A stretch of 64,000 nucleotides of DNA from Aliiroseovarius sp. S1339 (GTDB lineage: Bacteria; Pseudomonadota; Alphaproteobacteria; Rhodobacterales; Rhodobacteraceae), in NCBI RefSeq assembly GCF_023195695.1, contig NZ_JALPQG010000011.1:1-64000 (forward strand), read 5' to 3'. A program made the translations under genes and the position numbers. The notes below the pieces were generated by a model. The model was not told the origin of the DNA. It saw nothing but the letters and a program-made list of their open reading frames with translations, and made no database searches. Each line of letters starts with the position of its first letter. The stretch's first letter is position 1. Shown piece after piece: positions 1,633 to 18,498 of this stretch.

Positions 1633-2658
1633 TCAATCGAAGACTGTTGGGAAATGATTTTTGTCAACGATGCCTACGAAAAAGTCACCATCGGTTCCAG
1701 GTGAACCGGCCTGCCCGTTGGCCCCCGAGCTGCCGACTGACCCGGGAGATCCGGCGGGTCCTCCACCGCAATAGGGTTTTGCTTCCTGTCCACCCGGACC
1801 CGCAGCACCACCTCTACCTCCAATACCGGGCGCCCCTGGGGAACCGGGTTGCCCGCTCGAAACGGTAACCCTGAACTTTTGGCTTAGACTCGGGAGCAAC
1901 GAAGCGGACGACAATATTGTCACGGTACCACCGCTACCACCCGTGCCAGCAACACCTCCATCGCCTCCGCGCCCACCGGTGCCACCGTTTCCGCCGCGAC
2001 CACCACCAGCTTTGCAGTCAAAAAAGCTTGAAGATGCAGGCGTTCCTTTCCGCCCGTTACCTCCGTCGCCACCTTTCTGACCTTGCCCACCTTGCCCACC
2101 AGTTCCGCCGGTCAAATCGACGTGCGGCCCTGAGGACGGCACATTCAGGGTGGCAATGGTTATTGATGGGCTGGCAAATCCCGTCGCACCCGGTACGCCT
2201 GTTTCACCTCCTCCCCCAGTCCCACCCGGATTGCCGTCAGCGGGGCCATGTGTACCGGTGGGACCTTGACCCGGTTTTGCAGACGCAGTGGCGGTTGGAG
2301 GTTTTTCGTAGGTGATGGTCCCCGGATTTGCCGGATCCCGAACGACTATGTCTCTAGCGATGATGAAGAAATTTCGCCGTCGGTCTAGCGCCTGCGCCGA
2401 AAAGGTTAGCTTTGCACCTGGTTCGAAGACCAGCCTGTCCGTCTTGATGAACCATCCATCAAACCGGGTATCGCCATTGACGACGAAAGGCTCTGACAGC
2501 TTCAACAAATCCGCCTGCCTAATGGTTTGGATTTCGTTGATCACCGCAACTTCGGGTAGCTCGGTTGCGTCTGCACCATCGGCATTCGATTGAAATGCAA
2601 ACAACAAAGTGATGGCTGCAGCTGTTGTTGTGGAGTTGATTAGTTTCGACGTTTTCAT
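1633..2658 (-). CDS. Secreted collagen-like glycine-rich protein
   Basis: The start at 2658 is chosen because CAGGAG sits 8 bases upstream and gives a clean signal peptide (MKTSKLINS, a hydrophobic stretch, then a site near ADGADA). A roughly 100-residue N-terminal domain (VVNGDTRFDGWFIKTDRLVF, ALDRRRNFFIIARDIVV) precedes about 200 residues rich in Gly-X-Y triplets such as GSPGAPGIGG and GGDGGNGRKG. Two parts carry single Cys residues (FDCKAG, KPYCGGG). It is probably exported and forms an extended or collagen-like fold. It follows the small secreted gene at 2688-3041 by 29 bases in one operon, divergent from the SARP-type regulator. The exact function is unknown. Confidence 0.75.
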   Translation of the reverse strand: MKTSKLINSTTTAAAITLLFAFQSNADGADATELPEVAVINEIQTIRQADLLKLSEPFVVNGDTRFDGWFIKTDRLVFEPGAKLTFSAQALDRRRNFFIIARDIVVRDPANPGTITYEKPPTATASAKPGQGPTGTHGPADGNPGGTGGGGETGVPGATGFASPSITIATLNVPSSGPHVDLTGGTGGQGGQGQKGGDGGNGRKGTPASSSFFDCKAGGGRGGNGGTGGRGGDGGVAGTGGSGGTVTILSSASLLPSLSQKFRVTVSSGQPGSPGAPGIGGRGGAAGPGGQEAKPYCGGGPAGSPGSVGSSGANGQAGSPGTDGDFFVGIVDKNHFPTVFD

Positions 2659-2687
2659 TTTCAATGCTCCTGATTTGTGTTCTCGAC

Positions 2688-3041
2688 TTATTGGGTCGAC
2701 CATTGGTAACCAACCCAGCCACCGCGGCCGCCATCTCTGATCCCTCCTGTAGGGCCAGTCCTTTGAGTAACGCCATTCTGGAAGTCGTTTCGGCGCAGAT
2801 ATTCTTTATGTTGCCGATCTTCGTTTTGGCGCTGGATACGATTGTAGGAATTGAATGAGTCGTTACTTTGAGTGCCGCGCAGGTTTTGACAGGCCATTGA
2901 GTACGATGGCTGGCAAGAGCCGGATTGTTGCGCGGTTGCATTGATTGGAATTGCAATCAGGAGTAGTGTTGCCCCTATAAACGTAAGCTGCGCTATTCCG
3001 GTGATTTCGGATTTATGGTCATGTATGAAGTTTTTGAACAT
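2688..3041 (-). CDS. Small secreted protein of unknown function
   Basis: The start at 3041 follows TGGAGAG at good spacing. The first 37 residues hold a charged N-region, a hydrophobic core (LTFIGATLLLIAIPINA) and an AQQ cleavage region, so it is probably exported. The mature part is about 80 residues, Asn/Gln/Arg-rich, with two Cys residues (GSCQPSY, MACQNL) and a glycine-rich end (GPTGGIRDGGRGGWVGY) recalling the neighbouring collagen-like protein. It is first in a two-gene operon and probably shares the divergent control region with the regulator at 3192. No family recognised. Confidence 0.6.
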   Translation of the reverse strand: MFKNFIHDHKSEITGIAQLTFIGATLLLIAIPINATAQQSGSCQPSYSMACQNLRGTQSNDSFNSYNRIQRQNEDRQHKEYLRRNDFQNGVTQRTGPTGGIRDGGRGGWVGYQWSTQ

Positions 3042-3098
3042 TTTTTCTCTCCAGTGTCTCACGCACATTCTGCGTGTGAAGAGAGACTATGAGCTGAC

Positions 3099-3116
3099 CG
3101 TCATCAAAGCGTCATC
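3099..3116. promoter_or_regulatory. Candidate SARP operator: heptamer repeated with 11-base period
   Basis: CGTCATC occurs at 3099-3105 and again at 3110-3116, a period of 11 bases. SARP-family regulators are known to bind heptamer direct repeats spaced one helical turn (11 bases) apart. The pair lies in the 150-base region between the divergent secreted-protein operon and a SARP-like gene, so it may control one or both. The assignment is by pattern only. Confidence 0.45.
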
Positions 3117-3191
3117 GGCCCCTTTCAGAACGCTCCTCGTGCCCAAAAGTTTTCTGAAACACTCTGGCGGCTAATTGAAAGGCAAACGGAC

Positions 3192-4856
3192 TTGGATCGT
3201 GAATCTGAGGAAGCGGACGTGCTTGAGCGGAGCCAAACGGCTACGGCACGAGCACATTTATATGGACCCTTTCGGCTGAGGTTAAATAACGATTTTGATA
3301 TAACTCCCAGTAGCCCTTTGCGCCAGGCAATACTCGCCGTTTTGATTGATGCGCCAACCCAATCCACGTCGCGGCGAGTTCTTCAGGAAATGTTTTGGGG
3401 TTCCGCCACCCGAGCGAAGTCCAATGCAAGCCTGCGCACCGCCGTTTATCTGCTGAAGCGAGATATCGCGGCCCTTGGCGAGGATGTTATCCAAGCCGAC
3501 CGTAATGTGATCTCTCTTGCACGTGACCGGATATTGGCGCACCCCGGTTTGGTGCCCGGTGCAACTTTTTTGGAAGGATTGGACCTGCCGCTGCAGGATT
3601 GCGAAGGATTCGAAGATTGGCTTCGCGCTAAGCGCGTTGGATACGACATCGACAATGTACCTGCGCCAGTCGAGATTGGAACGTTGGCACAGATTGGAAC
3701 TAGGCCAAATCGACCCGTAGTTCTCGGTATTTTCCCCGCAATTCATGCCGACTTGAATCTCGAAGAACTCTTTCGAATCAACGCGGTGCTCGACTCGATG
3801 GCGCGATCCGTGTCCTACATGACTGAGCTTGATATCCACGATCTGCGCGGCTTCGATGTAGACGCTCTACCGCTGCCAATCGAGTCCGGAACCGGTCCAA
3901 CGCATCTCTTACAACCCATTGTCGAACTGCGAGGTAGTTGTCTGCGATTGACACTCCGGCTGTTCGAGGCCAGTTCCCGACGTATTGTCTGGGTTTCTGT
4001 TCCGTTCGATGCCTACTCGGTGCACGTCGAGGATCATGCAAACGTCGCGACGGAGACATTACTCGCACATCTCGCCTCGAGCAGTGTCGCCGGCAACGTG
4101 CCCGATCTTTTCCCCTGGACGGCAATTACCGCGCTGTTTTCTCTGGATGACAAACTCATTCACAGAACCGAAACCCAGATCCAATGCATGATTGAGAATG
4201 GAGCTCCGCCAGTGTTCGAGTGCTTGCGATTATTTGCACAAGTTTTCAAAGAGAACGAGGGCTTAGAGACGGAACATCGAATTTCCCCGGAAACTCTCTG
4301 CGAGTTGATTGCGAACGTCCCAAATTCCAATCCGATGTTACCTCTTTGGCAGAGCCTCGCAGGCTACTGCGCCCACATGCTGCTAGGCGAGAACGATCTT
4401 GCAGAATTACTGCTCGAAAGTGCACATGATCTGGCACCGACCCTTGCCCTCAATCTTGATCATCTTGCCGTGGTGAGGATGATGCGAGGCAATCTGGAAG
4501 GATCTGAATCAGCTTTTCAGCGCTGCCAAAAGTTCGGTGCAAGCAGTCCGTGGCGATACACCTATGATGTTACCGGATCGATGCTGGCGATGGCGCGTGG
4601 AGATTACCACACGTCGCTCAAGTACGCCAATCAGGCGCTAATGCGTAAGCCGCGTTTCATCGGTGCATTGCGCTATTCGATGGCTGGGTTCGCACTAGTG
4701 GGGAACCAGCAAGATGCCATGCTAATGCACACGCGCATTCGGCGCCTTCGTCCGAATTATGACTTTGGCGCCTGGACTGAGAGCATGATCCGTCGAACTC
4801 CGAGTGACCTAGGGCGGTCGCTTACCGAGAGCTTTCAACGCAATGGAATTACCTGA
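3192..4856 (+). CDS. SARP/BTAD-type transcriptional regulator with TPR-like C-terminus
   Basis: Residues about 20-105 resemble the winged-helix plus BTAD start of AfsR/SARP regulators (LYGPFRLRLNN, SPLRQAILAVLIDAP, LRTAVYLLKRDI). The middle (about 170-300) resembles the segment that precedes TPRs in related proteobacterial regulators, and the end (about 370-550) is helical and TPR-like (LALNLDHLAVVRMMRGNLEG, YANQALMRKPRFIGALRYSM). It has no signal peptide, membrane segment or NB-ARC ATPase. The start is probably TTG at 3192 (GAAAGG upstream); GTG at 3219 is an alternative. It ends 17 bases before the haloperoxidase-like gene and is probably the operon's own regulator. The activating signal is unknown. 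Confidence 0.75.
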   Translation: MDRESEEADVLERSQTATARAHLYGPFRLRLNNDFDITPSSPLRQAILAVLIDAPTQSTSRRVLQEMFWGSATRAKSNASLRTAVYLLKRDIAALGEDVIQADRNVISLARDRILAHPGLVPGATFLEGLDLPLQDCEGFEDWLRAKRVGYDIDNVPAPVEIGTLAQIGTRPNRPVVLGIFPAIHADLNLEELFRINAVLDSMARSVSYMTELDIHDLRGFDVDALPLPIESGTGPTHLLQPIVELRGSCLRLTLRLFEASSRRIVWVSVPFDAYSVHVEDHANVATETLLAHLASSSVAGNVPDLFPWTAITALFSLDDKLIHRTETQIQCMIENGAPPVFECLRLFAQVFKENEGLETEHRISPETLCELIANVPNSNPMLPLWQSLAGYCAHMLLGENDLAELLLESAHDLAPTLALNLDHLAVVRMMRGNLEGSESAFQRCQKFGASSPWRYTYDVTGSMLAMARGDYHTSLKYANQALMRKPRFIGALRYSMAGFALVGNQQDAMLMHTRIRRLRPNYDFGAWTESMIRRTPSDLGRSLTESFQRNGIT

Positions 4857-4873
4857 GGAAATAGGGGGAATTA

Positions 4874-5941
4874 ATGACTGAAGAATGCGAGCAACACAAA
4901 GAAATTGAGTGTGAGACCGAGATCGTGGAGATACTGAAACTCGGATGGCTATTGGTGGACAACGATAGATTGAGTTTGCGAAAGACTCCACCTGTGTACA
5001 ATTCACTTTCCGAATTCATTGGGGCAATCGTGGAGTTCTTTGAGGGTAATATCCCCAGTGATCTGAACGCTCTTTTTGAAGCTCTCGGCGATGCCATCAA
5101 TCCAAGAGTTAACGATCGGAACAGTACATTCAGCGTCGGCGGTGGATTACTGCACAAATCACTGCATAAATCGCTCCACAAGAGCCTTCACAAAAGTCTG
5201 CATAAGAGTCTTCACAAATCTGTCTACAGTGCCGGCGCTACGGGCTTAACCACTAGAGGTATTGATTGGCCGACGATTGAGGTTCCCTGGCGGGAACTTG
5301 ACCGGCTCTTCAATCTTAGGGAGGAATTTGGTTGGGACTGTTTCCCGCCCGATGTTCTCCCACCGCCGCCGGCAGTTCAGGTTCGGTTAGACGAGGCGAT
5401 AACGCTTATTGATCTTCAGAATGCGCTCCGCGAGCCCAACCAAGAATATCGTCGGGAACGCATACGCATCGAGGCTAGCAACGACCTGACAGCATTCATG
5501 CTTCCACTCGGCGCAGACGTCGCCACACCGGGCGGGCAAACAGCAGTCATGTTCCAGACCATCCTCTGGCTCGGAAGCTTGATCGGGCTCCTCTATAAGG
5601 AACGCTTCAATGCACCCCGACCGCATATCCTTAACTCCAAGTTGGAGCCCTTCATTCCGGTGCCAGCCTTTTCTTCTTATCCGTCGAACCACGCCTTCCA
5701 GTCTTTCCTGATCGCCGAAGTTTTCACGCGCGCGGTCCCGGAGCACCCAGGTGGCGAAGCACTTTTTTTTGCAGCGCAGGAAGTGGCTGAAAACCGCGAA
5801 CATGCTGGCCTGCATATCCCGTCGGACACGAAAGGCGGCCAATTGCTTGCTCGCCTATGCGCGCCGATGTTCGAAATTATTCTTGAGGACCAGATCCGCG
5901 ATGTCCGCGCGGAGTGGCTAGGAGAGGATTACTTCTCATGA
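4874..5941 (+). CDS. PAP2-superfamily / vanadium haloperoxidase-like protein with LHKS repeat
   Basis: The C-terminal half has the complete signature of the vanadium haloperoxidase and acid phosphatase superfamily: K242-x6-R249-P250, P270-S-N-H273, and R308-x5-H314-x3-D318. H314 would be the vanadate or phosphate ligand; the usual PSGH is PSNH here. The first 90 residues are acidic and unlike the family. Residues 93-116 are six LHKS tetrapeptides. There is no signal peptide and no obvious membrane segment, so a soluble cytoplasmic enzyme is likely. It may be a haloperoxidase or a phosphatase; sequence alone does not decide. The stop overlaps the protease start (ATGA), implying coupled translation. 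Confidence 0.75.
   Translation: MTEECEQHKEIECETEIVEILKLGWLLVDNDRLSLRKTPPVYNSLSEFIGAIVEFFEGNIPSDLNALFEALGDAINPRVNDRNSTFSVGGGLLHKSLHKSLHKSLHKSLHKSLHKSVYSAGATGLTTRGIDWPTIEVPWRELDRLFNLREEFGWDCFPPDVLPPPPAVQVRLDEAITLIDLQNALREPNQEYRRERIRIEASNDLTAFMLPLGADVATPGGQTAVMFQTILWLGSLIGLLYKERFNAPRPHILNSKLEPFIPVPAFSSYPSNHAFQSFLIAEVFTRAVPEHPGGEALFFAAQEVAENREHAGLHIPSDTKGGQLLARLCAPMFEIILEDQIRDVRAEWLGEDYFS
5150..5221 (+). repeat. Six tandem LHKS-coding 12-base units
   Basis: Six consecutive units encode Leu-His-Lys-Ser, but their codons differ: CTG/CTC/CTT for Leu, CAC/CAT for His, AAA/AAG for Lys, TCA/TCG/AGC/AGT/TCT for Ser. No two units are identical in DNA. The peptide is therefore kept by selection and is not a fresh slippage product. 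It lies between the acidic N-terminus and the catalytic domain of the haloperoxidase-like protein. Confidence 0.9.
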
Positions 5942-7431
5942 ACAACGACTTACAGAATCCAAAGCCAATCTATGCAGCTGACAACGACCTTCGCTATGTT
6001 GACAGCCATCCCGATTTTTTCAGTCACCCGTCCGGCACTGGCTTCCGCCCGGCGTTTCATGCGCTCTGGCACCTCAAGGAATTGGGGCTCGTGAACGACC
6101 TTGGGAGCTACACTAGCCCTGCTTGGGACGAAGCAAAGGCATATGCGGGTGTAGCCGACAACCCACCTATGCGTGTTGTGATTATTGATACTGCAGTGGA
6201 TTACAATCACCCCAATTTAAAAGATTCAGTCGACAAAGCACTGATGCGGGATTTCAGTCGGTTCGATAAGGGGACGTTTGCTGTCCTCGATACAAATATT
6301 GTCCCGGCCAACGATGCTTCGAGAATGCAGATCGAAGCTGCGACCATGACAATGGAACCCGATTTGGGTGCTGCCATCGCCAAAGAGCGCGCTTGGATCA
6401 CCGAAAAATATAACAATAATAACAATGATTTGCTTAAAAACAGCCAGCAGCGAGTCTTTGGAGCTCACGGCACTGCTGTCGCTGGTTTGATCGGAGCGAG
6501 ACCGACAACAATTTCGCTCCGGGAACCTGCATTTTTTCACGGCCGTGCTGATGGCGATTTCGACGAGTCCGTCATTCGCCAATGCGTGGAACTTCCCTAC
6601 GCCGGGGTTAATCCGTTCAGTCAGATTGTTCCGCTTTCGGTGTCTGCATCACCGCGTCCTGAGATGCTTTTCTACGCAATTCAATACGCGAGATGTCTTG
6701 CGCCCTCGATCGTGGTCGTCGCTGATTCTTGGGAGCGCCCAGCTGAATACAATGGTACACCTTGGGAAGATTTGGAAGATGCTTTTCTTGACCTTTGTAA
6801 GGAAAGCCTCGTATTTTGCGCCGCAGGCAATGATGATCTAGAAAACCTAGTCTATCCCGCATCCCTAAGTTCCGAAAGGGAAGGTCCTTGGGCCGTGGGT
6901 GCTTGCGAAAGATACTATGTCGAAGAAGGTGGCCACACGACCGTTGTTGTGAATGACCTGAGCTACTCACCTGATTTCGAGATAGCCATCGGTCTCGAGG
7001 AAACTTCAAATCATGAGAAGAATTCACAGTGGATGATCCGTACGTTAAGTACAGAATTGCCGAGGTTTGATCAGACAGAACAGAAAATCGATCCTTGGGG
7101 GACTATCGATAAGGAGTTGGGAAGCCCCAAAGCATCTACGAAATATCCACCTCGGGACGTCATTACCACTGATCTTCCAGGACGCTTTGGTTATAATCCT
7201 GCGTCTTACAAGTACAAGCCCTTGGCGGACGGGGAGCATTACGAAATTGCCTCGTTGTTCTGTCGGTTTGCAGGCACGTCGGCGTCCGCCGCCATCGCAG
7301 GTGGACTTGCTAGCTTGATCCCACCTAGCATGCTAAAATTAACCCGTCCTGGCGCGAGGCCCAAAGACGAAGCCGGCACTTTGGCCAAGTTGCTCGGAAG
7401 AGATTTGGCGCTCCATTTGTTCCGTAAATAA
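5938..7431 (+). CDS. Subtilisin-like serine protease (S8 family), cytoplasmic type
   Basis: The catalytic triad is readable: D84 in VVIIDTAVDYNHP, H177 in GAHGTAVAGLIG and S448 in FAGTSASAAIAGG. The last deviates from the usual GTSMA. The start at 5938 overlaps the preceding stop as ATGA, with GGAGAGG upstream; a start 24 bases earlier is less likely. At 497 residues it has no signal peptide or propeptide typical of secreted subtilases, so it probably acts in the cytoplasm. A run of five Asn (about 160) precedes the His motif. It is the last gene of the regulator-haloperoxidase-protease operon. Plausible substrates are its operon partner or the secreted collagen-like protein; neither is shown. 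Confidence 0.85.
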   Translation: MNNDLQNPKPIYAADNDLRYVDSHPDFFSHPSGTGFRPAFHALWHLKELGLVNDLGSYTSPAWDEAKAYAGVADNPPMRVVIIDTAVDYNHPNLKDSVDKALMRDFSRFDKGTFAVLDTNIVPANDASRMQIEAATMTMEPDLGAAIAKERAWITEKYNNNNNDLLKNSQQRVFGAHGTAVAGLIGARPTTISLREPAFFHGRADGDFDESVIRQCVELPYAGVNPFSQIVPLSVSASPRPEMLFYAIQYARCLAPSIVVVADSWERPAEYNGTPWEDLEDAFLDLCKESLVFCAAGNDDLENLVYPASLSSEREGPWAVGACERYYVEEGGHTTVVVNDLSYSPDFEIAIGLEETSNHEKNSQWMIRTLSTELPRFDQTEQKIDPWGTIDKELGSPKASTKYPPRDVITTDLPGRFGYNPASYKYKPLADGEHYEIASLFCRFAGTSASAAIAGGLASLIPPSMLKLTRPGARPKDEAGTLAKLLGRDLALHLFRK

Positions 7432-7585: not shown

Positions 7586-8122
7586 TCAAGCAATGCATAC
7601 AACGGCGCGTAAGCGCCATTTTGTTAAGTCCGGTGCGAACAGGCGGTCCGCAAGATCGGGTATGCTAGGTACAAGTTCAAACCTACCTTTGTTGATCATC
7701 CGGATAGCAGCACGTTGGGCTTTGTATCCGTGTTGATCGCCCTTCTCATGTTTGCCGATCTTGTCTCCCAGTTCGGGCAGTGGTTCGCCGGGCTGTGCAC
7801 CGAACCACAGAAACTCTGCCAGCTTGAGAGATTCCGGGTCGAAGCGTACCCAGATCACGCAGCCTGATGGTTTGTCTGCCAGCCGAATGTTGATCTTTTG
7901 CCTTGCGGTTTTGGCTCCGATGAAGCTGGATTTCATCTGCACATGTCGCTCAATGCCATTCGCCTCCAGCAGGATGTCATAGCCGCTGCGGTCGGTATGG
8001 CTGCGCAGGATGTCCATTTCAATCCCGCGTTTCCACATCTCCCGGCAGAGTTCACCGAGAAAGCCGTATTCAAGATACTGTTCCCGAAGGCTGGAAGCAT
8101 CGTTGTGCATGGTGTCTTTCAT
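7586..8122 (-). CDS. PD-(D/E)XK nuclease-like protein, divergent from controller gene
   Basis: The start at 8122 has GGAG six bases upstream. An N-terminal acidic helix (EYGFLGELCREMWKRG) is followed by SGYDILLEANGIERHVQMKSS, a D...Q-x-K arrangement seen in restriction-like folds. The rest (CVIWVRFDPESL, FLWFGAQPGEPLP) matches a hypothetical family I know from alphaproteobacterial accessory regions, where it lies beside an Xre-type regulator. It faces away from the C protein and shares the C-box region. It could be the restriction enzyme of this cluster or a phage-derived nuclease; its activity is unproven. Confidence 0.5.
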   Translation of the reverse strand: MKDTMHNDASSLREQYLEYGFLGELCREMWKRGIEMDILRSHTDRSGYDILLEANGIERHVQMKSSFIGAKTARQKINIRLADKPSGCVIWVRFDPESLKLAEFLWFGAQPGEPLPELGDKIGKHEKGDQHGYKAQRAAIRMINKGRFELVPSIPDLADRLFAPDLTKWRLRAVVCIA

Positions 8123-8947: not shown

Positions 8948-9024
8948 CCCTCTGATTGTTGGGCAAGCTATCAGGCCAGTTTGCAGCCAGAGTTGTTCGC
9001 GACGAACAAACCTCCGGTGATCCC

Positions 9025-10353
9025 ATGAACAAACAGAACCTGTCGACATCCCTGCCCACGGGCCGCATTGAACCAAGGCGGGTTTCCGACCTCAAGCCAT
9101 ATGCAAACAACCCGCGCACGCATTCCAAAAAGCAAATCCGGCAAATCGCAGACAGTATTACAACTTTTGGCTGGACCAACCCTGTCCTGATCGATGCGGA
9201 CGGCGGTGTTATTGCCGGTCACGGACGTCTCGAGGCTGCCAAGCTGCTTGGTATGCCAGAGGTACCGGCCCTGCAGCTTGATCATATGAGTGAAGCAGAG
9301 AAACGCGCATACATCATTGCTGACAACAAACTGGCGGAAAACGCCGGCTGGGATGATGAATTGCTGGCAATCGAGCTACAGGGCCTTCTGGAAATGGATA
9401 TTGGTTTCAGTATCGAACTGACCGGTTTTGAGATGGGCGAGATTGATGTGCTGTTGGCGGATGACAAACCATCGGAGCCAGAGATCGTTCCGCTCCCGCA
9501 AACAGACGCATCACCGGTCAGCCGAAAAGGCGATCTCTGGCTGATTGGTTCACATCGCCTGTATTGCGGTGATGCGCTTGAGCGCGTGTCATGGCAAACT
9601 CTGATGGGCAATGAAAAGGCACAGATGATCTTTACAGATCCGCCGTACAATGTGCCCATCGCCGGTCATGTGTCCGGGCTCGGGAAGAAGCAGCACCGTG
9701 AGTTCGCAATGGCTTCAGGTGAAATGAGCCAGGGCGGTTTTACCGATTTCCTGCGCAGCGCATTCCGCAATCTGACCTCAGTCAGCGCCGATGGTGCCAT
9801 CCATTTCATCTGTATGGACTGGCGTCATATGCGCGAACTCCTTGATGCTTCTGAAGGGGTTTATTCGGAATTCAAGAACCTCTGTGTCTGGGCCAAAACC
9901 AACGCAGGTATGGGGTCGTTTTATCGCTCGCAGCATGAACTTGTGTTTGCCTTCAAGCATGGTGGGGCAAGCCACATCAACAATTTCGGGCTGGGTGAAA
10001 CCGGACGACACCGCTCAAACCTCTGGACATACGCGGGCGCAAACACTTTCCGCGCGGGCCGGATGGATGACCTTGAAGCTCACCCAACGGTGAAGCCGAT
10101 AGACATGATCGCCGACGCGATCATGGACTGCTCGAAACGTGGCGGCATCATCGCTGACGGCTTTGCCGGATCCGGCACGACGCTGCTGGCGGCCGCGAAG
10201 ACCGGTCGCATTGGTGTCGGTGTTGAACTTGATCCGCACTACGCCGATCTGACCATCCGCCGTCTGGCAGACGCGACCGGCGAAACAGCAATACATGCAG
10301 ATAGTTTCGAGAGTTTTGATGCTGTCGCCAAAGAGCGCGAGGCAAACCAATGA
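9025..10353 (+). CDS. ParB-domain / DNA methyltransferase fusion (beta-class order)
   Basis: Residues about 10-110 form a ParB/Srx-like domain (LKPYANNPRTHSKKQIRQIA, GVIAGHGRLEAAKLLG). The methyltransferase follows, with D205-P-P-Y208 (TDPPYN) as the catalytic motif and FAGSGTT near the end as the SAM-binding motif. Motif IV before motif I is the beta-class order of N6-adenine or N4-cytosine enzymes. Such fusions are common in alphaproteobacterial prophages and integrative elements. The start at 9025 fits the family; an in-frame ATG at 8956 is an alternative. It overlaps the DUF5681 gene by ATGA. Target sequence unknown. Confidence 0.85.
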   Translation: MNKQNLSTSLPTGRIEPRRVSDLKPYANNPRTHSKKQIRQIADSITTFGWTNPVLIDADGGVIAGHGRLEAAKLLGMPEVPALQLDHMSEAEKRAYIIADNKLAENAGWDDELLAIELQGLLEMDIGFSIELTGFEMGEIDVLLADDKPSEPEIVPLPQTDASPVSRKGDLWLIGSHRLYCGDALERVSWQTLMGNEKAQMIFTDPPYNVPIAGHVSGLGKKQHREFAMASGEMSQGGFTDFLRSAFRNLTSVSADGAIHFICMDWRHMRELLDASEGVYSEFKNLCVWAKTNAGMGSFYRSQHELVFAFKHGGASHINNFGLGETGRHRSNLWTYAGANTFRAGRMDDLEAHPTVKPIDMIADAIMDCSKRGGIIADGFAGSGTTLLAAAKTGRIGVGVELDPHYADLTIRRLADATGETAIHADSFESFDAVAKEREANQ

Positions 10354-10757
10354 GTAAAAAACACAATAAGGACTATGAGGTTGGCTATGGGAAACCGCCA
10401 AAGGCAACACAGTTTAAAAAGGGCCAATCGGGAAATACCAAAGGCCGCCCTAAAAAGAGCGAGAACGTCCGAACACTACTGCGGGAAACATTGAACCAAC
10501 AAGTGCAGGTGCGCGTGAACGGCAGGGTAAAAACAATCCGTTTACGCGAAGCCTATGTGCAAAAACTCACTGAAAAGGCGATGAACGGGAGCATGCGTGA
10601 CATGCTGGCGTTCCTGAAAGAGGTCGAACGGATCGCACCGGAATTACTTGAGAACGAGACCAAGCCGGAACCCGTTGTGTGGGAGTTTGTGCTGCCGGAC
10701 GGTCAACGCATGACCCACGACGAGTTTCTTGCAAGAGGCCCGGAAACGGAAGAGTAG
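10350..10757 (+). CDS. DUF5681-type small basic protein
   Basis: The N-terminal motif GYGKPPKATQFKKGQSGNTK followed by GRPKK is the hallmark of DUF5681, a small basic family often found in phages and mobile elements beside ParB-methyltransferase fusions, as here. The remaining 90 residues form a helical region (RTLLRETLNQQVQVRVNG, REAYVQKLTEKAMNGSMRD). It overlaps the methyltransferase stop by four bases and is translationally coupled. The family's function is not established; a role in DNA packaging or binding has been suggested from context only. Confidence 0.8.
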   Translation: MSKKHNKDYEVGYGKPPKATQFKKGQSGNTKGRPKKSENVRTLLRETLNQQVQVRVNGRVKTIRLREAYVQKLTEKAMNGSMRDMLAFLKEVERIAPELLENETKPEPVVWEFVLPDGQRMTHDEFLARGPETEE

Positions 10758-10849
10758 TAAATGACAGACCTTTCATCGACAGTGGTTCCGCGGACCGGAG
10801 CCGAATGGCTTTTCCGGCTTGGACGTCCGTCGATGGGCAGGTTTTCTGA

Positions 10850-11065
10850 TCAGTCGCGCAGATACCGCGCGGCGATCATCTCAGCCGCATCCAGCCCTCG
10901 GTCAATATCTGCCAGGTGTTCACGCACCGACGACGCGGCCGTTCGGGCCTTTTCGGCGTCTATCCACGGCGACTGCCCCTCAAGTGCCGCAAGTGCCGCT
11001 TCTTCAAGCCGGGCCGTCACTTCCGCAAACAGGCGCTGAACCGTATCTTTCGGGTCGTTTTCCAT
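10850..11065 (-). CDS. Small hypothetical helical protein
   Basis: From the ATG at 11065 a 71-residue helical protein is encoded (DTVQRLFAEVTARLEEAALA, REHLADIDRGLDAAEMIAAR). Similar short proteins are common in alphaproteobacterial elements carrying ParB-methylases, but their role is unknown. A longer frame to 11194 exists; its N-terminal extension looks non-coding. The gene is antiparallel to both neighbours, and no clear ribosome site is visible. Confidence 0.5.
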   Translation of the reverse strand: MENDPKDTVQRLFAEVTARLEEAALAALEGQSPWIDAEKARTAASSVREHLADIDRGLDAAEMIAARYLRD

Positions 11066-11240
11066 AGTGGCGACTGACGCTTCCTTTGGAAAGCAAGTCC
11101 AGTTGTTTGTTTTGTGATCAGGATTAACCCGACATTCACCAAATTGTTTTCTGAATGTTCTTGTCTCACGGGAACCCTGCCGCCATAGTGACAAAAAAAT
11201 TCCCCGCGAGACTAAATCGTGGCACCGGAGGGCGCGCAGA

Positions 11241-12473
11241 ATGACCGAATTCGAACTTCTATTACAGAAAACCGGGCACTCAGTCGCCGAAGCGGCAAAG
11301 ATTCTCGGCTATTCTGAGGGACACATCTACCGCTGGAAACGTGGTGAGGAAACCCCGCGCGAAGGTGTAATGAACCTTCTTCGTATGGAAGTCGATGCGC
11401 GTCAGCCGGAGACTTCCGGTACGGCGTTTTCCTTTATCGATCTGTTCGCGGGGATTGGCGGGCTGCGCAAGGCTATGGAGAGCGCAGGCGGGCGTTGCGT
11501 GTTCACCTCAGAATGGGATCGGTTCGCCCAGCAGACCTACGATGCCAATTTCTCTGACAACCGCCCGATTGCCGGGGACATAACCGAAATCGAAGCCGAA
11601 GAGATTCCCGAACATGACGTGCTGGTCGCGGGCTTTCCCTGTCAGCCGTTTTCAATTGCAGGGGTATCGAAAAAGAACGCTCTTGGCCGCGCTCACGGCT
11701 TTGATGATGAAACTCAGGGCACACTGTTTTTTGACGTGCTGCGGATCCTCAAGCATCACCGGCCTGCCGCCTTCATGCTCGAGAATGTGAAGAACCTGCG
11801 CAGCCATGACAAAGGTCGTACGTTCCAGGTCATCATGCGTAAGCTGCGGGATGAGCTTGGTTACTATGTGCCGGAACCCCGGGTCATTGATGCCGCTCAT
11901 TTTGTGCCGCAGCACCGAGAGCGGATTGTCATTGTTGGCTTCCGCGAAGACGTGCCGTTCAGTTTCGATGATGTTATTTTGCCACCCCACCGGGAGCGCC
12001 GCATGCGGGACATCCTGCACCCGGAGAACGGCAATGAGAACCCGGAGAGCCATTTCACGCTCGGCAATGACGCTGCCGTCAGCGGCAAATACACCCTGTC
12101 CGACAAGCTTTGGAAATACCTGCAGGACTATGCCGCAAAGCATAAAGCCATGGGAAACGGATTTGGCTTCGGGCTAGTGGATGGCGACAGTATCGCCCGG
12201 ACCCTGTCCGCCCGGTATTACAAAGACGGATCCGAAATCCTGGTGAGCCGTGGCGAGGGGAACAATCCCCGCCGACTTACTCCCCGGGAATGCGCCCGGC
12301 TGATGGGCTATCCAGAAGATTTCCGGATCCCGGTTTCGGACACCCAGGCCTACAAGCAGTTTGGGAACTCGGTGGCCGTCCCGGTTTTTGCTGAGGTCGC
12401 CCGGGTTATGGAGCCGCATGTCCGGTCAATTCTGCAGGGACAGACGATTAATCCGGTCAGAAAAGTTGGCTGA
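11241..12473 (+). CDS. dcm: DNA (cytosine-5) methyltransferase, Dcm/EcoRII type
   Basis: Residues 1-55 are a helix-turn-helix segment ([20 protein letters not shown]). The C5-methylase follows: [14 protein letters not shown] (SAM binding), GFPCQPFS with catalytic C134, [29 protein letters not shown], and the target-recognition region ending in [12 protein letters not shown]. These blocks closely resemble E. coli Dcm and M.EcoRII, so the target is probably CCWGG or a CCNGG relative. The N-terminal HTH suggests autoregulation, as known for EcoRII/SsoII-type methylases. The gene overlaps vsr by 8 bases and begins a methylase-Vsr-endonuclease operon. Confidence 0.92.
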
Positions 12474-12927
12474 CGTCCATAACCCGGAAGCTCGCAGTCG
12501 CAACATGGCGGCGATCCGGGGAACCAATTCAAAACCCGAACTTCTCATCCGCCATGGGCTTCACGCTCGCGGGTTTCGTTATCGGTTGCACGATCGCAAG
12601 CTTCCGGGCCGCCCGGATCTGGTGCTGCCGAAGTACCAGGCCGTGGTTTTTGTGAACGGCTGCTACTGGCACGGGCATGATTGCCCGCTCTTCAAATGGC
12701 CAAAAACCCGGGAAGAGTTCTGGCGAGAAAAGATTGGCGGGAATGTCGAACGGGATCAGAGGAACCTGGCTGCGCTTAAAGCTGCAGGCTGGCGGATTGC
12801 ATGCGTCTGGGAGTGCGCCCTTAAGGGACGTGGCAAGCTTCCGCGGGAAGACCTGATTGACAACATCGCCACATGGTTGTCCTCTGACCGGAAAGAAGCA
12901 TCTTTCCGGGGCGAGGACACTGTCTGA
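12466..12927 (+). CDS. vsr: Very short patch repair endonuclease
   Basis: The 153-residue product matches Vsr in length and motifs: [20 protein letters not shown] at the start, [20 protein letters not shown] carrying the catalytic Asp, and [15 protein letters not shown] with His/Cys ligands. Vsr nicks beside T:G mismatches left when 5-methylcytosine deaminates in the methylase's own target. The start is read as TTG at 12466, inside the end of dcm; the next ATG at 12505 would remove conserved residues. Dcm-Vsr coupling is well known. Here the endonuclease follows as well. Confidence 0.9.
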
Positions 12928-12940
12928 CAATCTGACATCA

Positions 12941-14239
12941 TTGCTGGATCGCATGGCTGCAGCTGGCGCAACGGCATTTTATGCCAAGCGGCTTGCACCA
13001 AACGACAATTCCAAGAACCAGATTTATCTCGGTGGAGGTTTTGAAGCGCTCAACACTATTCCTCATGGGCCCATAGAAACCGACAGCTCGTCAAAGGCAG
13101 GCAGTGTGCGGGATCGGGCAAAAGCAGGAGTGCGGTTCTATTGGATTGATGCGCAAGGTTTGTCACTGGCGCCGGACGTCTCTCTGATCCTTTATCCGAA
13201 ATACCCTGAAGTGCGTATCTCCGGGTTCCTCAAAGGCGCGGAGCGGGCGCCTTCAGACCTGATGCGGTCACGCGACCCGGGGCGGGTTCTCTTCCTTGGC
13301 ACATGTCCGGACGGTCGCGTCTTTGGTTTTGCCGCGGGCTGGTCTGATCCTGTCGTGTCAGCCCTTGATGCAGCAGAGCTTCCCGAAACCACAGGGGTGT
13401 TTCTGAACCTGACCGGGTTGCGAACCGGGGTTGCAGACACTCGCACAGCTCTCATCAACCGGCTCAGAGAAATCCACCAGACTGGGTGGATCAAGTCCCA
13501 AAAGCTCGGACCTCACGGACCTCAGCCCTATCAGGCCCAAAACGGTGGCGGATACACGCTTGAGGCAGAACTTGGCATTACGCCGAACGGCAATGCCGAC
13601 CCCGACTACCTTGGCTGGGAGATCAAACAGTACGGTGTCCGTGACTTCATCAGATTTGCACCCAAAAGCGTGGTCACGTTAATGACCCCTGAACCGACGG
13701 CCGGATACTACCGTGAGGCCGGGCCGGACGCATTTGTCCGGCGATTTGGCTATCCGGATCAGTCCGGTAAATCCGACCGGATCAATTTTGGCGGCGCATA
13801 CGCGATCGGCAAAGAGGCGAACGGGCTGACGGGACTGAGCCTTTCCCTCAGTGGCTACGATGCCACCCAGGGCAAAATCACCGATATGGACGGAGGCATC
13901 CATCTTGTCGATGCTGATGGGACGCGAGCGGCGACCTGGGCCTTTGAAGGGCTGATTTCACACTGGAACAGAAAGCACGCGCGCGCCTGTTACGTGCCAT
14001 CAATCCGACAGGGGCCTCCGTTTGAATACCAGTACGGCGGTCGCATCGAGATGTGCGAGGGGACGGACTTCTTCCTGTTTCTCAAGTCAGTCTCAGCGGG
14101 TGTCGTCTACTATGATCCGGCGCTCAAACTTGAGGGGGCGACTTCAGCCAGACCCGCGCTCAAGCGACGGAGCCAGTTTCGAGTGCGGCATCAGGCACTG
14201 TCGGGGCTTTATCGAAAAGCTGAGCAGGAAATGCTGTGA
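12941..14239 (+). CDS. Type II restriction endonuclease, MvaI/BcnI-like
   Basis: The C-terminal half holds GYTLEAELGITPNGNADPDY then LGWEIKQYG, the E...D...E-x-K core of the MvaI/BcnI group, monomeric enzymes that cut CCWGG or CCSGG. The N-terminal half (FYAKRLAPNDNSKNQIYLGG) is the extra domain in many members. With a Dcm-type methylase and Vsr upstream, it completes a restriction-modification set aimed at CCNGG-like sites. The start is uncertain: TTG 12941 and ATG 12953 are candidates, and an open frame reaches ATG 12857 inside vsr. Homologue length favours a start near 12920-12941. Confidence 0.82.
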   Translation: MLDRMAAAGATAFYAKRLAPNDNSKNQIYLGGGFEALNTIPHGPIETDSSSKAGSVRDRAKAGVRFYWIDAQGLSLAPDVSLILYPKYPEVRISGFLKGAERAPSDLMRSRDPGRVLFLGTCPDGRVFGFAAGWSDPVVSALDAAELPETTGVFLNLTGLRTGVADTRTALINRLREIHQTGWIKSQKLGPHGPQPYQAQNGGGYTLEAELGITPNGNADPDYLGWEIKQYGVRDFIRFAPKSVVTLMTPEPTAGYYREAGPDAFVRRFGYPDQSGKSDRINFGGAYAIGKEANGLTGLSLSLSGYDATQGKITDMDGGIHLVDADGTRAATWAFEGLISHWNRKHARACYVPSIRQGPPFEYQYGGRIEMCEGTDFFLFLKSVSAGVVYYDPALKLEGATSARPALKRRSQFRVRHQALSGLYRKAEQEML

Positions 14240-14359
14240 AGGCTTCATGGACGGAAACCGGACTTTCGCTGCAGCGACCATGAATGTCCCGAATGCGCTG
14301 CCTGCGGACCTTCGTCTTCGGTCCTATCAATGGCGGCTGGATCGCGCTCTTCCAGCATG

Positions 14360-17266
14360 TCATGCACTTTTCTGCAGCTTGGCTTTGCCATCACAGTCTG
14401 GGAAGCGGACACAGCCGAGAAATGCTCCATAGCGGCCGCGCCGTTCTACAAGCCATCCTGCTTCGCAACTCGGGCAAGCCTGCTGGGTCTCCCCGCAATC
14501 AGTGCAAACCATTTCTCCACTGATCCGGGAACGGATCGGAAGGCCGACACCGCAGGCGGGACAAGCCGGCATGCGACTGCCGCACAGCTTCACGTGCTCG
14601 CAGCGATACCAGTCACGACCGTCCTTTCCTGCCATGTGAAGCAGACGGCCTCCGCAACCCGGACAGGTGTGGGTGTGCTTCTGAGCCTCCAAGGGCACAG
14701 CCACACCGAATTCGGGCTCTTTCATCAGTTCCTCGACGAAGACGGAGGGGCGCGCTTCGGATGCAAGGATGGTCACGGTCCGCCGGGCCCGGGTCACGGC
14801 GACGTACATCACGCGCCTTTCTTCGGCATTCGGATATGGCTCGGCCTCGGGCGATACCAGGCTGAGCAGAGGGTCGTCGACGATCATCGACGGAAAGCCC
14901 ATCTTCGCGTTGTCGGCACCGAGGATGATGACGTGATCGGCCTCCAGACCTTTCGACGCATGGATGGTCTTGAAGGTGATCGTCGCCCCGGGGTTTTGGC
15001 GCAGAAGCCGCCCGACATCGGGCCTCAGGAACCGATATCGTCCCAGGATCAGGATGGACGGCTTTGCGCCTCCCTTGCCTTCAGTGGCCGCAAGAGAAGC
15101 CACGGCGTCGTCCAAGGTTTTCTCCCCGGTGTCGCGCCGCGTCCAGGCGATCTTGATCGAAGGTTCGTCCGTCTCACCTGCTGGTATTACCGTCTTGGTG
15201 ATCTGCGCGGGGTTGCGCAGAACGAAGCGGCGGGCGGCCAGAGCAATCTTGTCCACTGATCGAAAGGTCCGGCCGAGATCGACAGTGCGGTGGACACCAG
15301 TGGCACCTGCATAGGTGCCCCCGAATTCCGCACCGAAATTGCGCATGATATGGATGTCCGACCCGGCGAAGCGGTAGATCGACTGCCAGTCATCCCCGAC
15401 GGCAAACACCTTAGCATCGGAATGCTGGCGCTTGAGTGCCTGGATCAGCTTCGCCCGCCCGGTGGAGATATCCTGGAACTCGTCGACGAGGATATGTCGG
15501 AACGGGCTCTGGTAGCGCCCGCTCTCGACGAGTGCGGTGGCGCGGTTCACCATGTCCTCGAAGTCGATCCGATCACCCAGACGGGATTGATACTCCCGAA
15601 ACACAGCCCCGAAGATCCTTAGGAAGGCCTCGGCGCGCTTGCCCATCTTCAGCGTCTGCGCCTTGTCTGAACAGTCCTCGACCCGGTAGCCGCCGTTCTT
15701 GAAGTGACGCAGGAAGGTGCCCATCAGCGAGGTGAAGCTGTCCACCACCCCGACCTCAGCGACGCGGTCGTAGATCTCGATGTCCGGGACCGGCCGCAGC
15801 GTGACGTGGGGCTCGAGCTTCTCGGCAAGCGCGTCAAGCAGCCGCCCTTCTTCACGCTGCCAGCTGTAGGTTTCCAGCAGAACCGTCTCGTGCTCGGCAT
15901 GGACCTGCCGTTTCCAGTCCATGCTCTCGAGGTATTCCTCGCGATCAACGTAAGGGGCCGTCGTCAGCTCCTCCTTGCCGTCCTTGCCGCGTTTCTTGCG
16001 CACGCCGAAATGCTCGATATAGACGCCGCTCTCTGTCAGCCGGAAATCGGGTGTGTAGACGCGGCGCCTGGTCTTCTTGAGCTTGTGCTCGTAGCTCGGC
16101 TCGTATTCGTAGGCGATACCGTTTCTGAAGAGCCAGTTGGCGATCAGAAGCTCTTCGAAGCTGTTCACCGTCTCGCCTTGCAGCGTCCGCAGGTTGCGGC
16201 TTTCGATCTGCGCATACCATTCGTGCTTGGTCTCGAAGTCCCATTCTGTCGGGAAGTCGTCGAAGAACCCGGCGAACCAGCCCATCACGGTTTGCGCGAT
16301 CTCGCTGGCAGTCGCCACGATGTGCCGCAGGATGTCCTTCATGAGCGATAGGAAGGCCTTGTCGTCCGTCGCGGTCGGCGCCAAAGGCGGCTTCTCTCCT
16401 TCCACCTCACCAATGATCTCGTAGGCCAACGCGTGGAACGTGCGAGCTGCCACGGGGACCCCGCACCTGGCTTCGATCCGCTCCGACATCTCAGTTGCTG
16501 CGTCTTTCGCGAAGGCAAGCAGCAGGAGCTCGCTTGGCTTCCGTATCTCCGCCTTCACGAGGTAAGCGGCTTTGGCGGTGATCACGCTGGTCTTGCCCGA
16601 CCCCGCGCCGGCCAGAACCAGCGTTGCGTCTTCGTCGACGACAACCGATAGGCGCTGTTCCGGCGTCAGTGGCATGGACTCGACCGTGTCGAAAAAATCC
16701 TTCCATCGAAGCAGCTGTGCTTCCACAAATGCCTCGATTGACGCGTCCCGGATGGCATTCGGATCGGATGCGAACGCCACGATCGGGGCAATTCGGGACA
16801 TCACCTTGTTGCCAACGGCCTCCGCATTCAGCTTGGACAGCACACGGCCGTTCAGGTCGGCAGCATCGCGCACCAATGGCGCTACGTGGCATGCCGCTGG
16901 GTAAGCATCCGGCACCTTGAGCGAATCGAGCGCTTGCAGGATGCGGCGGACCGCAGCGTCCTCAGCTTCGAGCTCCGCCCGGTTGAAATCCGTCCAGGCG
17001 GTGGCAGCCGCGTCTGCGAAGTATCTTGCTGCAGACGCATCCACCGCTGGCAAGGTCAGATTCCGGTCGCCGCCGAGATTGAGTAACAGCGAAGATGAGA
17101 GAAGGCCCTTCCTCACTGCTGGGCGCGTCGCGATGTTTTCGAGCCCTATCCAGGGCGAACCCGCCCCGCGTGCCGCAATACCCTTGTCTTGCAGGGTTAG
17201 GGACCTTGGATGTCGGCCGAGAGGGTCAATCAGGAACCCCAGGAAGGATTTTGAGGCGAGGTTCAT
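14360..17266 (-). CDS. UvrD/helicase IV-like superfamily 1 helicase with nuclease-like insert and zinc tail
   Basis: SF1A helicase motifs are in order: Walker A AGAGSGKTS (about residue 220), ARTFHALAYEI, HILVDEFQDIS, VGDDWQSIYRF, TFKTIHASKGLEADHVIILG, and MYVAVTRARR. Between motifs Ia and II lies a segment (FEELLIANWLFRNGI, RVYTPDFRLTESGVYIEHFG) resembling a PD-(D/E)XK-like fold. The last 90 residues hold about 12 Cys in paired CxxC clusters, like topoisomerase zinc ribbons. The start is set at 17266 (MNLASKSFLGF); an ATG at 17368 extends 34 doubtful residues. It probably repairs or processes DNA, perhaps in defence given its neighbours. It converges with the restriction operon. Confidence 0.85.
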   Translation of the reverse strand: MNLASKSFLGFLIDPLGRHPRSLTLQDKGIAARGAGSPWIGLENIATRPAVRKGLLSSSLLLNLGGDRNLTLPAVDASAARYFADAAATAWTDFNRAELEAEDAAVRRILQALDSLKVPDAYPAACHVAPLVRDAADLNGRVLSKLNAEAVGNKVMSRIAPIVAFASDPNAIRDASIEAFVEAQLLRWKDFFDTVESMPLTPEQRLSVVVDEDATLVLAGAGSGKTSVITAKAAYLVKAEIRKPSELLLLAFAKDAATEMSERIEARCGVPVAARTFHALAYEIIGEVEGEKPPLAPTATDDKAFLSLMKDILRHIVATASEIAQTVMGWFAGFFDDFPTEWDFETKHEWYAQIESRNLRTLQGETVNSFEELLIANWLFRNGIAYEYEPSYEHKLKKTRRRVYTPDFRLTESGVYIEHFGVRKKRGKDGKEELTTAPYVDREEYLESMDWKRQVHAEHETVLLETYSWQREEGRLLDALAEKLEPHVTLRPVPDIEIYDRVAEVGVVDSFTSLMGTFLRHFKNGGYRVEDCSDKAQTLKMGKRAEAFLRIFGAVFREYQSRLGDRIDFEDMVNRATALVESGRYQSPFRHILVDEFQDISTGRAKLIQALKRQHSDAKVFAVGDDWQSIYRFAGSDIHIMRNFGAEFGGTYAGATGVHRTVDLGRTFRSVDKIALAARRFVLRNPAQITKTVIPAGETDEPSIKIAWTRRDTGEKTLDDAVASLAATEGKGGAKPSILILGRYRFLRPDVGRLLRQNPGATITFKTIHASKGLEADHVIILGADNAKMGFPSMIVDDPLLSLVSPEAEPYPNAEERRVMYVAVTRARRTVTILASEARPSVFVEELMKEPEFGVAVPLEAQKHTHTCPGCGGRLLHMAGKDGRDWYRCEHVKLCGSRMPACPACGVGLPIRSRISGEMVCTDCGETQQACPSCEAGWLVERRGRYGAFLGCVRFPDCDGKAKLQKSA

Positions 17267-17496
17267 GAGCACCAAATTACCAGACTTTCCCAAGGTGTAG
17301 CAGATATCGGACAGCGGGGAACCTTTTGGGACACATTGCAGACGCGAATGGGCGAATACTGTGCCCACTTATACCCGGCAATGCTCTCAAATCGGGCGAA
17401 CGGCTGGGCGGGAAGCATGCGTAATTGGGCTGACCCTGCACTGAGGTCGAGCTCCCGATAAACTCACAGCAATGCTGTGAACAAGGGAGACAGATA

Positions 17497-18498
17497 ATGG
17501 AATACTATGTTGGATTAGACGTGTCGCTTCGGTCGTGTGCGCTTTGCATAGTCGACAGGAAGGGCAAGGTGCATCTTGAACGGGAGTTGCCGTGCGAGAT
17601 TGATGACATCGCCGATTGCCTCGCCGAGTTCGGCCAATCTATTGAACGTATCGGGTTCGAGGCAAGTGCGTTGAGCCAGCATTTGTTCTTTGGTCTGCAA
17701 GAGAAGGGCTTTGACATCGTCTGTATGGAAGCCAGGCAGGTCAGCGCGGCGTTGTCGGCCATGCGGAACAAGACAGATAAAACAGATGCATGGGGTATAG
17801 CGCAGATACTGCGCACTGGTTGGTTCAGCCCGGTTCACATGAAAAGCCGCGAGGCGCATGGTCTGCGTGCGCTCTTGAGCACACGAAAGGCATTACTCAA
17901 GAAAACCATGGATTTGGCCAACGAGGTGCGCGGTCTGTTGAAGATCTTCGGCGTCAGGCTGCCCAAGACAGTCAAGCATGGTAGCTTCGATAGCTTGGTG
18001 CGTCCCATGATTGAAATGGATGATGTCCTCGCGCACGCGATCATTCCACTGCTGGATGCCCGGGCGGTCCTCTTTCAGCACTACTTGGAACTGGATCGTC
18101 GGGTAAAACGCGCGGCCTCCCAGGACGCGGTCTGCATGCGCATGATGACTGTCCCTGGTGTTGGACCAATCGCGGCACTAACGTTCAAGGCTGCTGTCGA
18201 TGATCCAAGCCGGTTCAAACGATCACGAACAGTCGCCGCGCATTTTGGACTTACACCCAGGCGGTACCAGTCCGGTGAACACGATAATCCCGGTCGTATA
18301 TCGAAGGCAGGCGACCGGGATGTACGCGCCACTCTCTACGCGGCAGCCAATGCTTTGCTCATGAGAACGATGGCTAGATCGCAGATCAAGTCATGGGGAA
18401 TGCGGTTGATGCGTACCAAAGGCCGCAGACGCGCGGTTGTAGCCGTTGCCCGTAAACTCGCTGTTCTTCTGCACCGCATGTGGATTGATGGCACGTAA
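17497..18498 (+). CDS. IS110-family transposase (DEDD)
   Basis: The N-terminal RuvC-like DEDD domain shows YYVGLDVSLRS (first Asp), RIGFEAS (Glu) and NKTDKTDAWGIAQ (two Asp). The C-terminal domain has VPGVGPIAALTFKAA and GRISKAGDRDVRATLY, containing the conserved Ser of this family. Length (333) is normal and the frame intact, with AAGGGAGA upstream, so it may be active. IS110 transposases act as site-specific recombinases directed by a structured RNA from the element's own non-coding end. Confidence 0.93.
   Translation: MEYYVGLDVSLRSCALCIVDRKGKVHLERELPCEIDDIADCLAEFGQSIERIGFEASALSQHLFFGLQEKGFDIVCMEARQVSAALSAMRNKTDKTDAWGIAQILRTGWFSPVHMKSREAHGLRALLSTRKALLKKTMDLANEVRGLLKIFGVRLPKTVKHGSFDSLVRPMIEMDDVLAHAIIPLLDARAVLFQHYLELDRRVKRAASQDAVCMRMMTVPGVGPIAALTFKAAVDDPSRFKRSRTVAAHFGLTPRRYQSGEHDNPGRISKAGDRDVRATLYAAANALLMRTMARSQIKSWGMRLMRTKGRRRAVVAVARKLAVLLHRMWIDGT

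Follow-up and report, generated by a model that had tools for sequence, protein, structure and literature searches.

A co-inherited regulator, acid phosphatase-like protein and subtilase cassette carrying a lineage-specific tandem peptide tract

Introduction

Class A non-specific acid phosphatases (PhoN/PhoC; structure 7f17) and vanadium-dependent haloperoxidases share the active-site pattern of the PAP2 superfamily. The former have the same fold and the same K-RP, PS-H and R-H-D residues as a PAP2 protein that we analyzed in Aliiroseovarius sp. S1339, whose gene lies between those of a regulator and an S8 subtilase in the first 64,000 nucleotides of contig NZ_JALPQG010000011.1 (hereafter, the window) and encodes a perfect tandem peptide tract. 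The other parts of this three-gene cassette also have described counterparts. The regulator resembles the SARP proteins AfsR and EmbR, as well as CadC, in combining a winged helix with a TPR region, and its middle domain is CadC-like by fold; CadC itself is a membrane-helix protein. A TPR regulator, a protease and repeated peptides are also the ingredients of the RRNPP/RRNPPA systems. The Sdr/Clf SD-repeat surface proteins have stalks of dipeptide repeats with varied codons and one fixed unit.

Results

A perfect tandem tract whose unit differs between lineages

The PAP2 protein of the window carries (LHKS)6 in the stretch that separates the N-terminal part from the catalytic domain, a feature absent from the initial annotation of this DNA (Table 1). 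Window-type relatives (hereafter, type I) have tracts at the matching place that are built from other units (NR, NK, SR, SK, TK, GR, NRG, NRD, LHKG, AQ and AN), with 3-16 copies. The tract was perfect in 87 of 91 type I entries (90 loci, L023 and L056 being one locus); three were imperfect (L036, L037 and L073) and one was cut by a contig end. This tally leaves out L025 and L030, which repeat L102 and L114. On a tree of 88 of the 91 entries (one duplicate row was dropped, and two entries were removed by a length filter), the unit changed at least 11 times, as estimated by a quick method that returned long-branch warnings.

Among 85 different tracts, same-place codons of adjacent units agreed in 0.380 of 1619 comparisons, whereas shuffling within tracts gave an agreement of 0.431 (standard deviation 0.0096), and none of 2000 shuffles was as low as the observed value. 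A total of 1247 of 4857 bases differed between adjacent units, all of them silent by construction. Scrambled codons in perfect units indicate that selection on the peptide, and not recent slippage, keeps the repeats; judged from the codons, the tract is maintained by selection at the amino-acid level.

Outside the PAP2 gene, no tract of ≥12 residues was found among 374 open reading frames (ORFs) of 19 loci, all 13 tracts detected being in PAP2. No comparable tract was seen in the partners either: the longest run among 79 subtilases was 10 residues (GGN, L076), and no run in the 78 regulators exceeded 6. As a control, 30 PAP2 loci were obtained from 41 relatives using the Pfam model: the tract was present in all nine that lie beside a regulator and in none of the 21 without one. 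These nine had all been seen before and overlap with the named set and family sample (see below).

A more distant branch (hereafter, type II) was represented by 18 loci picked from the weaker PAP2 matches of the first search, about ten further such matches being left out. A perfect tract and a regulator homologue were found in all 18 and an S8 gene in 17; L169 sits on a short contig. The type II tract is near the N-terminus of the PAP2 protein, not between domains, and has 4-19 copies of mostly tripeptide units (NSQ, NSY, GNQ, DAR, GTQ, GWE, QHG, TGW, GGA, NGR, GQH, GAF, GKM, GNA, ATM, GGV and NVG) or of one tetrapeptide (GGGA). A type II profile built from 16 PAP2 proteins matched 18 of 378 genomes in a phylum sample at 20 places (flanks of 1.5 kilobases, kb), where the tract was present at 20, the regulator at 19 and the S8 gene at 17; two of these genomes are from outside Alphaproteobacteria, and L162 and L192 are one locus. 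Three viral contigs matched this profile weakly, with the tract in none of them.

Both branches together use 41 units, counted up to rotation. None of their 119 residues is Pro, Ile or Cys, while about 8, 5 and 1, respectively, would be expected from the PAP2 proteins, and only 4 are acidic against about 14 expected; this pattern was noticed afterwards and was not a planned test.

The three genes are inherited together

The initial annotation described the regulator, PAP2 and subtilase genes as a tightly coupled operon, and we found its coordinates and frames again, together with the 17-base gap between the regulator and PAP2 genes and the ATGA overlap of the PAP2 and subtilase genes at 5938-5941. 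The three genes also co-occur in fixed order well beyond the window strain. Among the 80 relatives kept, of 182 found in a scan of named genomes, a same-strand regulator is directly upstream in 77 loci and a subtilase directly downstream in 79, the exceptions being two contig starts (L046 and L059), one contig end (L096) and L091. The objection anticipated in that annotation, that the genes might not co-occur elsewhere, fails because they form a conserved unit beyond this strain. All three were present in the same order in 12 of the 14 loci first fetched from relatives, and a second copy of the cassette with this order is on another contig of the window genome.

In a family sample of 394 genomes, which overlaps the named set, the PAP2 protein was detected in 19, with both partners at 19 of 20 places and one place broken. 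Within the genus, an NK-type copy occurs in 7 of 21 genomes and the LHKS-type copy in the window genome only. The window type is thus rare and its distribution patchy: a class sample yielded 1 of 385 genomes (the window's own) and a phylum sample 3 of 398, all Alphaproteobacteria. Relatives were also matched in 75 of 72,556 plasmid records, three of which were opened and all had the regulator, PAP2 and S8 genes; a single scan using the type I profile gave no virus-borne member. A broken member was also noted (L034/L157): its PAP2 reading frame is disrupted, neither a regulator nor a subtilase was found with it, and it has an AM-type repeat upstream.

Families and active sites of the encoded proteins

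The window PAP2 protein matches Pfam PAP2 at 1.2e-6. Searched against the Protein Data Bank, its profile matched the acid phosphatase 7f17 at E 4.8e-23 and a V-bromoperoxidase at 0.014. The AlphaFold2 model had a mean predicted local distance difference test (pLDDT) score of 83, with >90 in the catalytic part and the tract in a low-confidence region; Foldseek placed the domain with class A acid phosphatases (7f17, E 2e-8, template modeling score 0.74 by target), and the first vanadium peroxidase came at 3e-3. K242, R249, P250, S271, H273, R308, H314 and D318 are invariant in all 61 alignment rows. The full PAP2/vanadium-haloperoxidase signature reported in the initial annotation is thus valid at the superfamily level only, because the motif reads PSNH and class A acid phosphatases are the closest match by both sequence and fold; identity as a vanadium haloperoxidase was rejected on both sequence and fold. 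Type II PAP2 proteins are somewhat nearer to vanadium haloperoxidases (3e-7), still behind acid phosphatase (5e-19). On these grounds the window protein is an acid phosphatase-type enzyme with intact predicted active-site residues. The secretion signal expected of class A enzymes was not seen at the N-termini of the window protein and its relatives, inspected by eye and hydropathy; L015 and L021, two PAP2 relatives without the tract, have a signal peptide by eye.

The subtilase had been annotated as signal-less with an intact D84-H177-S448 triad, which conservation supports: the triad and the oxyanion residue N298 are invariant in a 34-row alignment. Among 80 aligned subtilases, D, H and N are each present in 80 and S in 79; the one sequence lacking S, L053, comes from an ORF truncated at a contig end.

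For the regulator, the window protein alone gave a weak Trans_reg_C match in Pfam (0.0087, below the cut-off) and a TPR match. An alignment of 43 homologues matched AfsR (4.5e-9), EmbR (6.9e-8) and many TPR proteins, with the TPR matches of the family profile reaching 3.8e-15; the BTAD match is weak (0.015) and was obtained for one homologue (L045). Both sequence hallmarks of SARP proteins were found, namely an OmpR/PhoB-like N-terminal winged helix related to that of AfsR/EmbR and a BTAD/TPR effector region, the latter via TPR. Foldseek matched the AlphaFold2 model (mean pLDDT 88.5) to the CadC periplasmic (sensor) domain and to TPR superhelix proteins. No signal peptide or strong membrane helix stood out in the regulator or the PAP2 protein in a hydropathy scan. 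The L174 regulator starts with a class III cyclase-like domain in place of the winged helix, and the output domain looks replaceable, from such comparisons, while the TPR region and the tract stay. By eye, the regulators of L162 and L171 resemble that of L174 in their cyclase-like N-terminus. A class III cyclase-like gene, also labeled by eye, adjoins the cassette downstream of the subtilase in the GR-type loci L122, L126 and L127.

Genomic setting and neighboring genes

Table 1 Features of the window discussed in the text
Feature	Position	Strand	Remarks
Regulator	3192..4856	+	SARP/CadC-type winged helix, CadC-like middle domain, TPR superhelix; TTG start as listed
PAP2 protein (class A acid phosphatase-like) with internal tandem peptide tract	4874..5941	+	PF01569
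(LHKS)6 tract, PAP2 residues 93-116	5150..5221	+	Six units, six different DNA spellings
PAP2 active-site motifs K(x6)RP, PSNH, R(x5)H(x3)D	5606..5829	+	Invariant in 61/61 rows
S8 subtilase without signal peptide, D84/H177/N298/S448	5938..7431	+	PF00082 at 3.4e-17; residues conserved
Exported glycine-rich collagen-like protein, judged outside the system	1636..2658	-	PF01391 at E 0.02; no recurring relatives
Small exported protein, judged outside the system	2691..3041	-	No family match; hydrophobic N-terminal stretch

The operon is near the left end of a 135,637-base contig, in DNA with a GC content of 0.524 versus 0.574 to the right. On one flank is a gene with a DUF6538 domain, which we take to be linked to integrases, and on the other are phage- or restriction-like genes (several labels by eye). 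The nearest relative of the window PAP2 protein is a Tateyamaria protein (73% identical) and not one from its own genus, which suggests that the window copy was acquired by transfer. Further along, a region at 8956-17400 has ParB/methylase-like, DNA cytosine methylase-like and Vsr-like ORFs by eye, with an IS110-like transposase at 17497; this region is probably a mobile island. A tRNA-Gln and a recombinase-like ORF are near 25.7-27.6 kb (labels partly by eye).

The initial annotation likened the operon to conflict or stress modules. Searched with PADLOC, its three proteins gave a generic subtilase match (0.0074) only and no described anti-phage system, and the genes around the cassette vary between loci and are not typical defense genes. 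Pointing the other way are the patchy distribution, the low-GC DNA and the integrase-like and phage-like genes beside the window operon. Adjoining the cassette at 7586-8122 on the minus strand is an ORF with a weak PD-(D/E)XK/homing endonuclease match, and PADLOC likewise gave a weak homing-endonuclease match there.

As to the exported proteins that the operon was said to face, the pair looks real, but the collagen match of one of them is weak, and the link to the operon was not upheld, as no such family recurs among the neighbors examined. The collagen-like genes were rejected as part of the system for this lack of recurrence, and some LHK-type loci have other genes upstream. Library scans gave no family match for the small exported protein. 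Among the neighbors there was no constant fourth gene and no recurring gene for a small exported peptide (ORFs under 60-70 residues were not listed); some neighbor ORF clusters are antisense artefacts.

Several neighbors were seen in part of the loci. Type I secretion genes are near the cassette in 12, with ABC, HlyD and TolC genes divergent from the NK-type cassette in L022, L116, L136 and further Aliiroseovarius loci. A second, larger S8 subtilase (13 loci) and a LuxR-type gene (12) are upstream in L045, L121, L123, L125 and other NR-type loci. In L039, L040 and L041, a large secreted protein (TPR-like start, apparent barrel, Slam-like by eye) and a lipoprotein are encoded upstream of the regulator in the same direction. 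Right after the L134 cassette on the Rhizobium ruizarguesonis plasmid pTA1_1 (8357-11093) are genes for a protein annotated as a HEXXH putative peptide modification protein, for a ThiF adenylyltransferase and for a protein of 65 residues, which resemble a peptide-modification cluster. Other neighbors include a heme peroxidase and a C1 peptidase.

Discussion

A candidate recognition tag and its alternatives

We tentatively propose, as a possibility that falls somewhat short of likely, that the co-inherited regulator, PAP2 protein and subtilase form a soluble regulatory cassette, in which the PAP2 tract would be a tag specific to each locus that its co-encoded partners read or cut. That the tag is read is what we infer as most likely from the perfection of the tract, its lack of Pro, its lineage-specific chemistry and the near-constant presence of the TPR regulator and subtilase. 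The tract may act as an address label of the PAP2 protein that another product of the locus reads; the likeliest readers would be the regulator, whose TPR superhelix could take up one unit with each helical repeat, and/or the subtilase through its active cleft. A resting complex would hold phosphatase and regulator together until the phosphatase is freed, either through cleavage of the unstructured tract, which lacks Pro, or through detachment of the tract from the TPR groove; this release could reset transcription, or cyclase output in the variants, and a change of unit would prevent cross-talk between systems. A stricter form, which we consider doubtful, is a periodic-peptide code: the TPR superhelix would match its own tract repeat to repeat, the subtilase would erase the tag, and wholesale swaps of the unit would give insulated, orthogonal copies. 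Armadillo proteins with (KR)n peptides are a precedent for one peptide unit per helical repeat. TPR superhelices and designed helical-repeat proteins can bind peptides of two- or three-residue period, repeat to repeat, according to an excerpt of PMC10115654, and such periodic recognition is established in designed systems in an excerpt of PMC6838082.

Several observations weigh against the tag proposal or parts of it. The effects of a shared unit on the identity of the partner domains were small and confounded by descent (+0.032 for the subtilase, +0.016 for TPR, +0.003 for the middle domain and -0.049 for the winged helix). Unit numbers vary beyond a one-to-one TPR match in both types. L091 has its regulator-like gene about 2.8 kb off on the opposite strand, and gene order and strand vary in type II, where the regulator is often on the opposite strand, so a single shared transcript is not general. 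Seven genomes with two systems use two different units, which speaks for the tag proposal, but such differences are expected anyway from the spread of units.

The tract could instead be a homotypic assembly tag that gathers like PAP2 molecules into condensates, fibers or trimers, with the unit separating the systems. The units do resemble assembly sequences (RS/RG, G-rich, Q/N-rich and W/Y/F stickers), Gly stands at each third place of many tripeptide tracts, whose units and score as collagen in Pfam/NCBIfam, and the window tract is largely unstructured in the AlphaFold2 model; but the units share no chemistry (GGV, NRD, LHKS and GKM), the absence of Pro is unusual for collagen or linkers, and the adjoining, near-constant regulator and subtilase are left unexplained, which makes this rather unlikely in our estimate. 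Distinctly less probable is a multi-copy signal precursor, from which the subtilase would release identical peptides of two, three or four residues for sensing by the TPR regulator. It has precedents in the processing of yeast alpha-factor by kexin and in the tandem pheromone propeptides of RRNPP systems. Such tandem propeptides occur in Bacillota, as stated in an excerpt of PMC11343458, and identical copies, each of them perfect, next to an S8 protease and a TPR regulator, as well as the lack of Pro and Ile and the rarity of acids in the units, would suit a precursor. However, spacers, constant cut sites and an export signal are absent, every new unit would demand another protease specificity, and di- and tripeptides hold little information.

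A tract that serves only as a protease-sensitive linker, where any flexible stretch would suffice for the subtilase to release the phosphatase, is very unlikely: the window tract does connect two parts predicted to be folded, and the model has low confidence there, but a plain linker would not remain perfect while synonymous sites scramble, and the type II tract is not interdomain. Hardly credible, finally, is a cause at the DNA level, in which the repeats would arise from slippage or serve phase variation. Unit number does vary between close relatives (NR 12 and 14 in L067 and L068), but the DNA of adjacent units agrees less than it does after shuffling, and a change in unit number keeps the frame because units are whole codons.

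Comparison with described systems

The component families of the cassette are known; what the literature that we found does not describe is how they are combined and, most of all, the tandem tract with its lineage-specific unit. The initial annotation did not recognize the combination as a described system, and our search of the open-access literature agrees, as neither the combination nor such a tract was found there. To our knowledge, no system has been described where an enzyme retains a short, perfect tandem peptide with a unit that is swapped by lineage while the repetition is conserved. Taken together, the gene and tract comparisons point to a putative, undescribed control system with a changeable recognition tag. 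With 41 units, nature may have run a large experiment in periodic-peptide recognition; if a partner reads the tract, the loci would offer ready-made orthogonal tag/receptor pairs, and marine and plant-associated bacteria would have a novel type of regulated phosphatase/protease switch.

Compared with PhoN/PhoC, the cassette PAP2 protein has no signal peptide, has PSNH (type I) and not PSGH, and is distinguished by its tandem tract and its co-inherited regulator and subtilase. Vanadium haloperoxidases are far weaker matches to type I PAP2 (profile E 0.014 and above; Foldseek 3e-3), which is a small, single-domain protein. The regulator differs from AfsR, EmbR and CadC in coming from proteobacteria together with PAP2 and S8 genes, and the window protein, unlike CadC, lacks a strong membrane helix. 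Unlike RRNPP/RRNPPA systems, the cassette has no secreted propeptide, its tract is inside a phosphatase, and its receptor would be of another family. Whereas the Sdr/Clf repeats are at the surface, the cassette tract is apparently cytoplasmic and has 41 units. The designed tripeptide-repeat binders, as an excerpt of PMC10115654 presents them, likewise pair a helical repeat protein with a peptide of two- to three-residue period, of which the regulator and tract described here would be a hypothetical natural pair.

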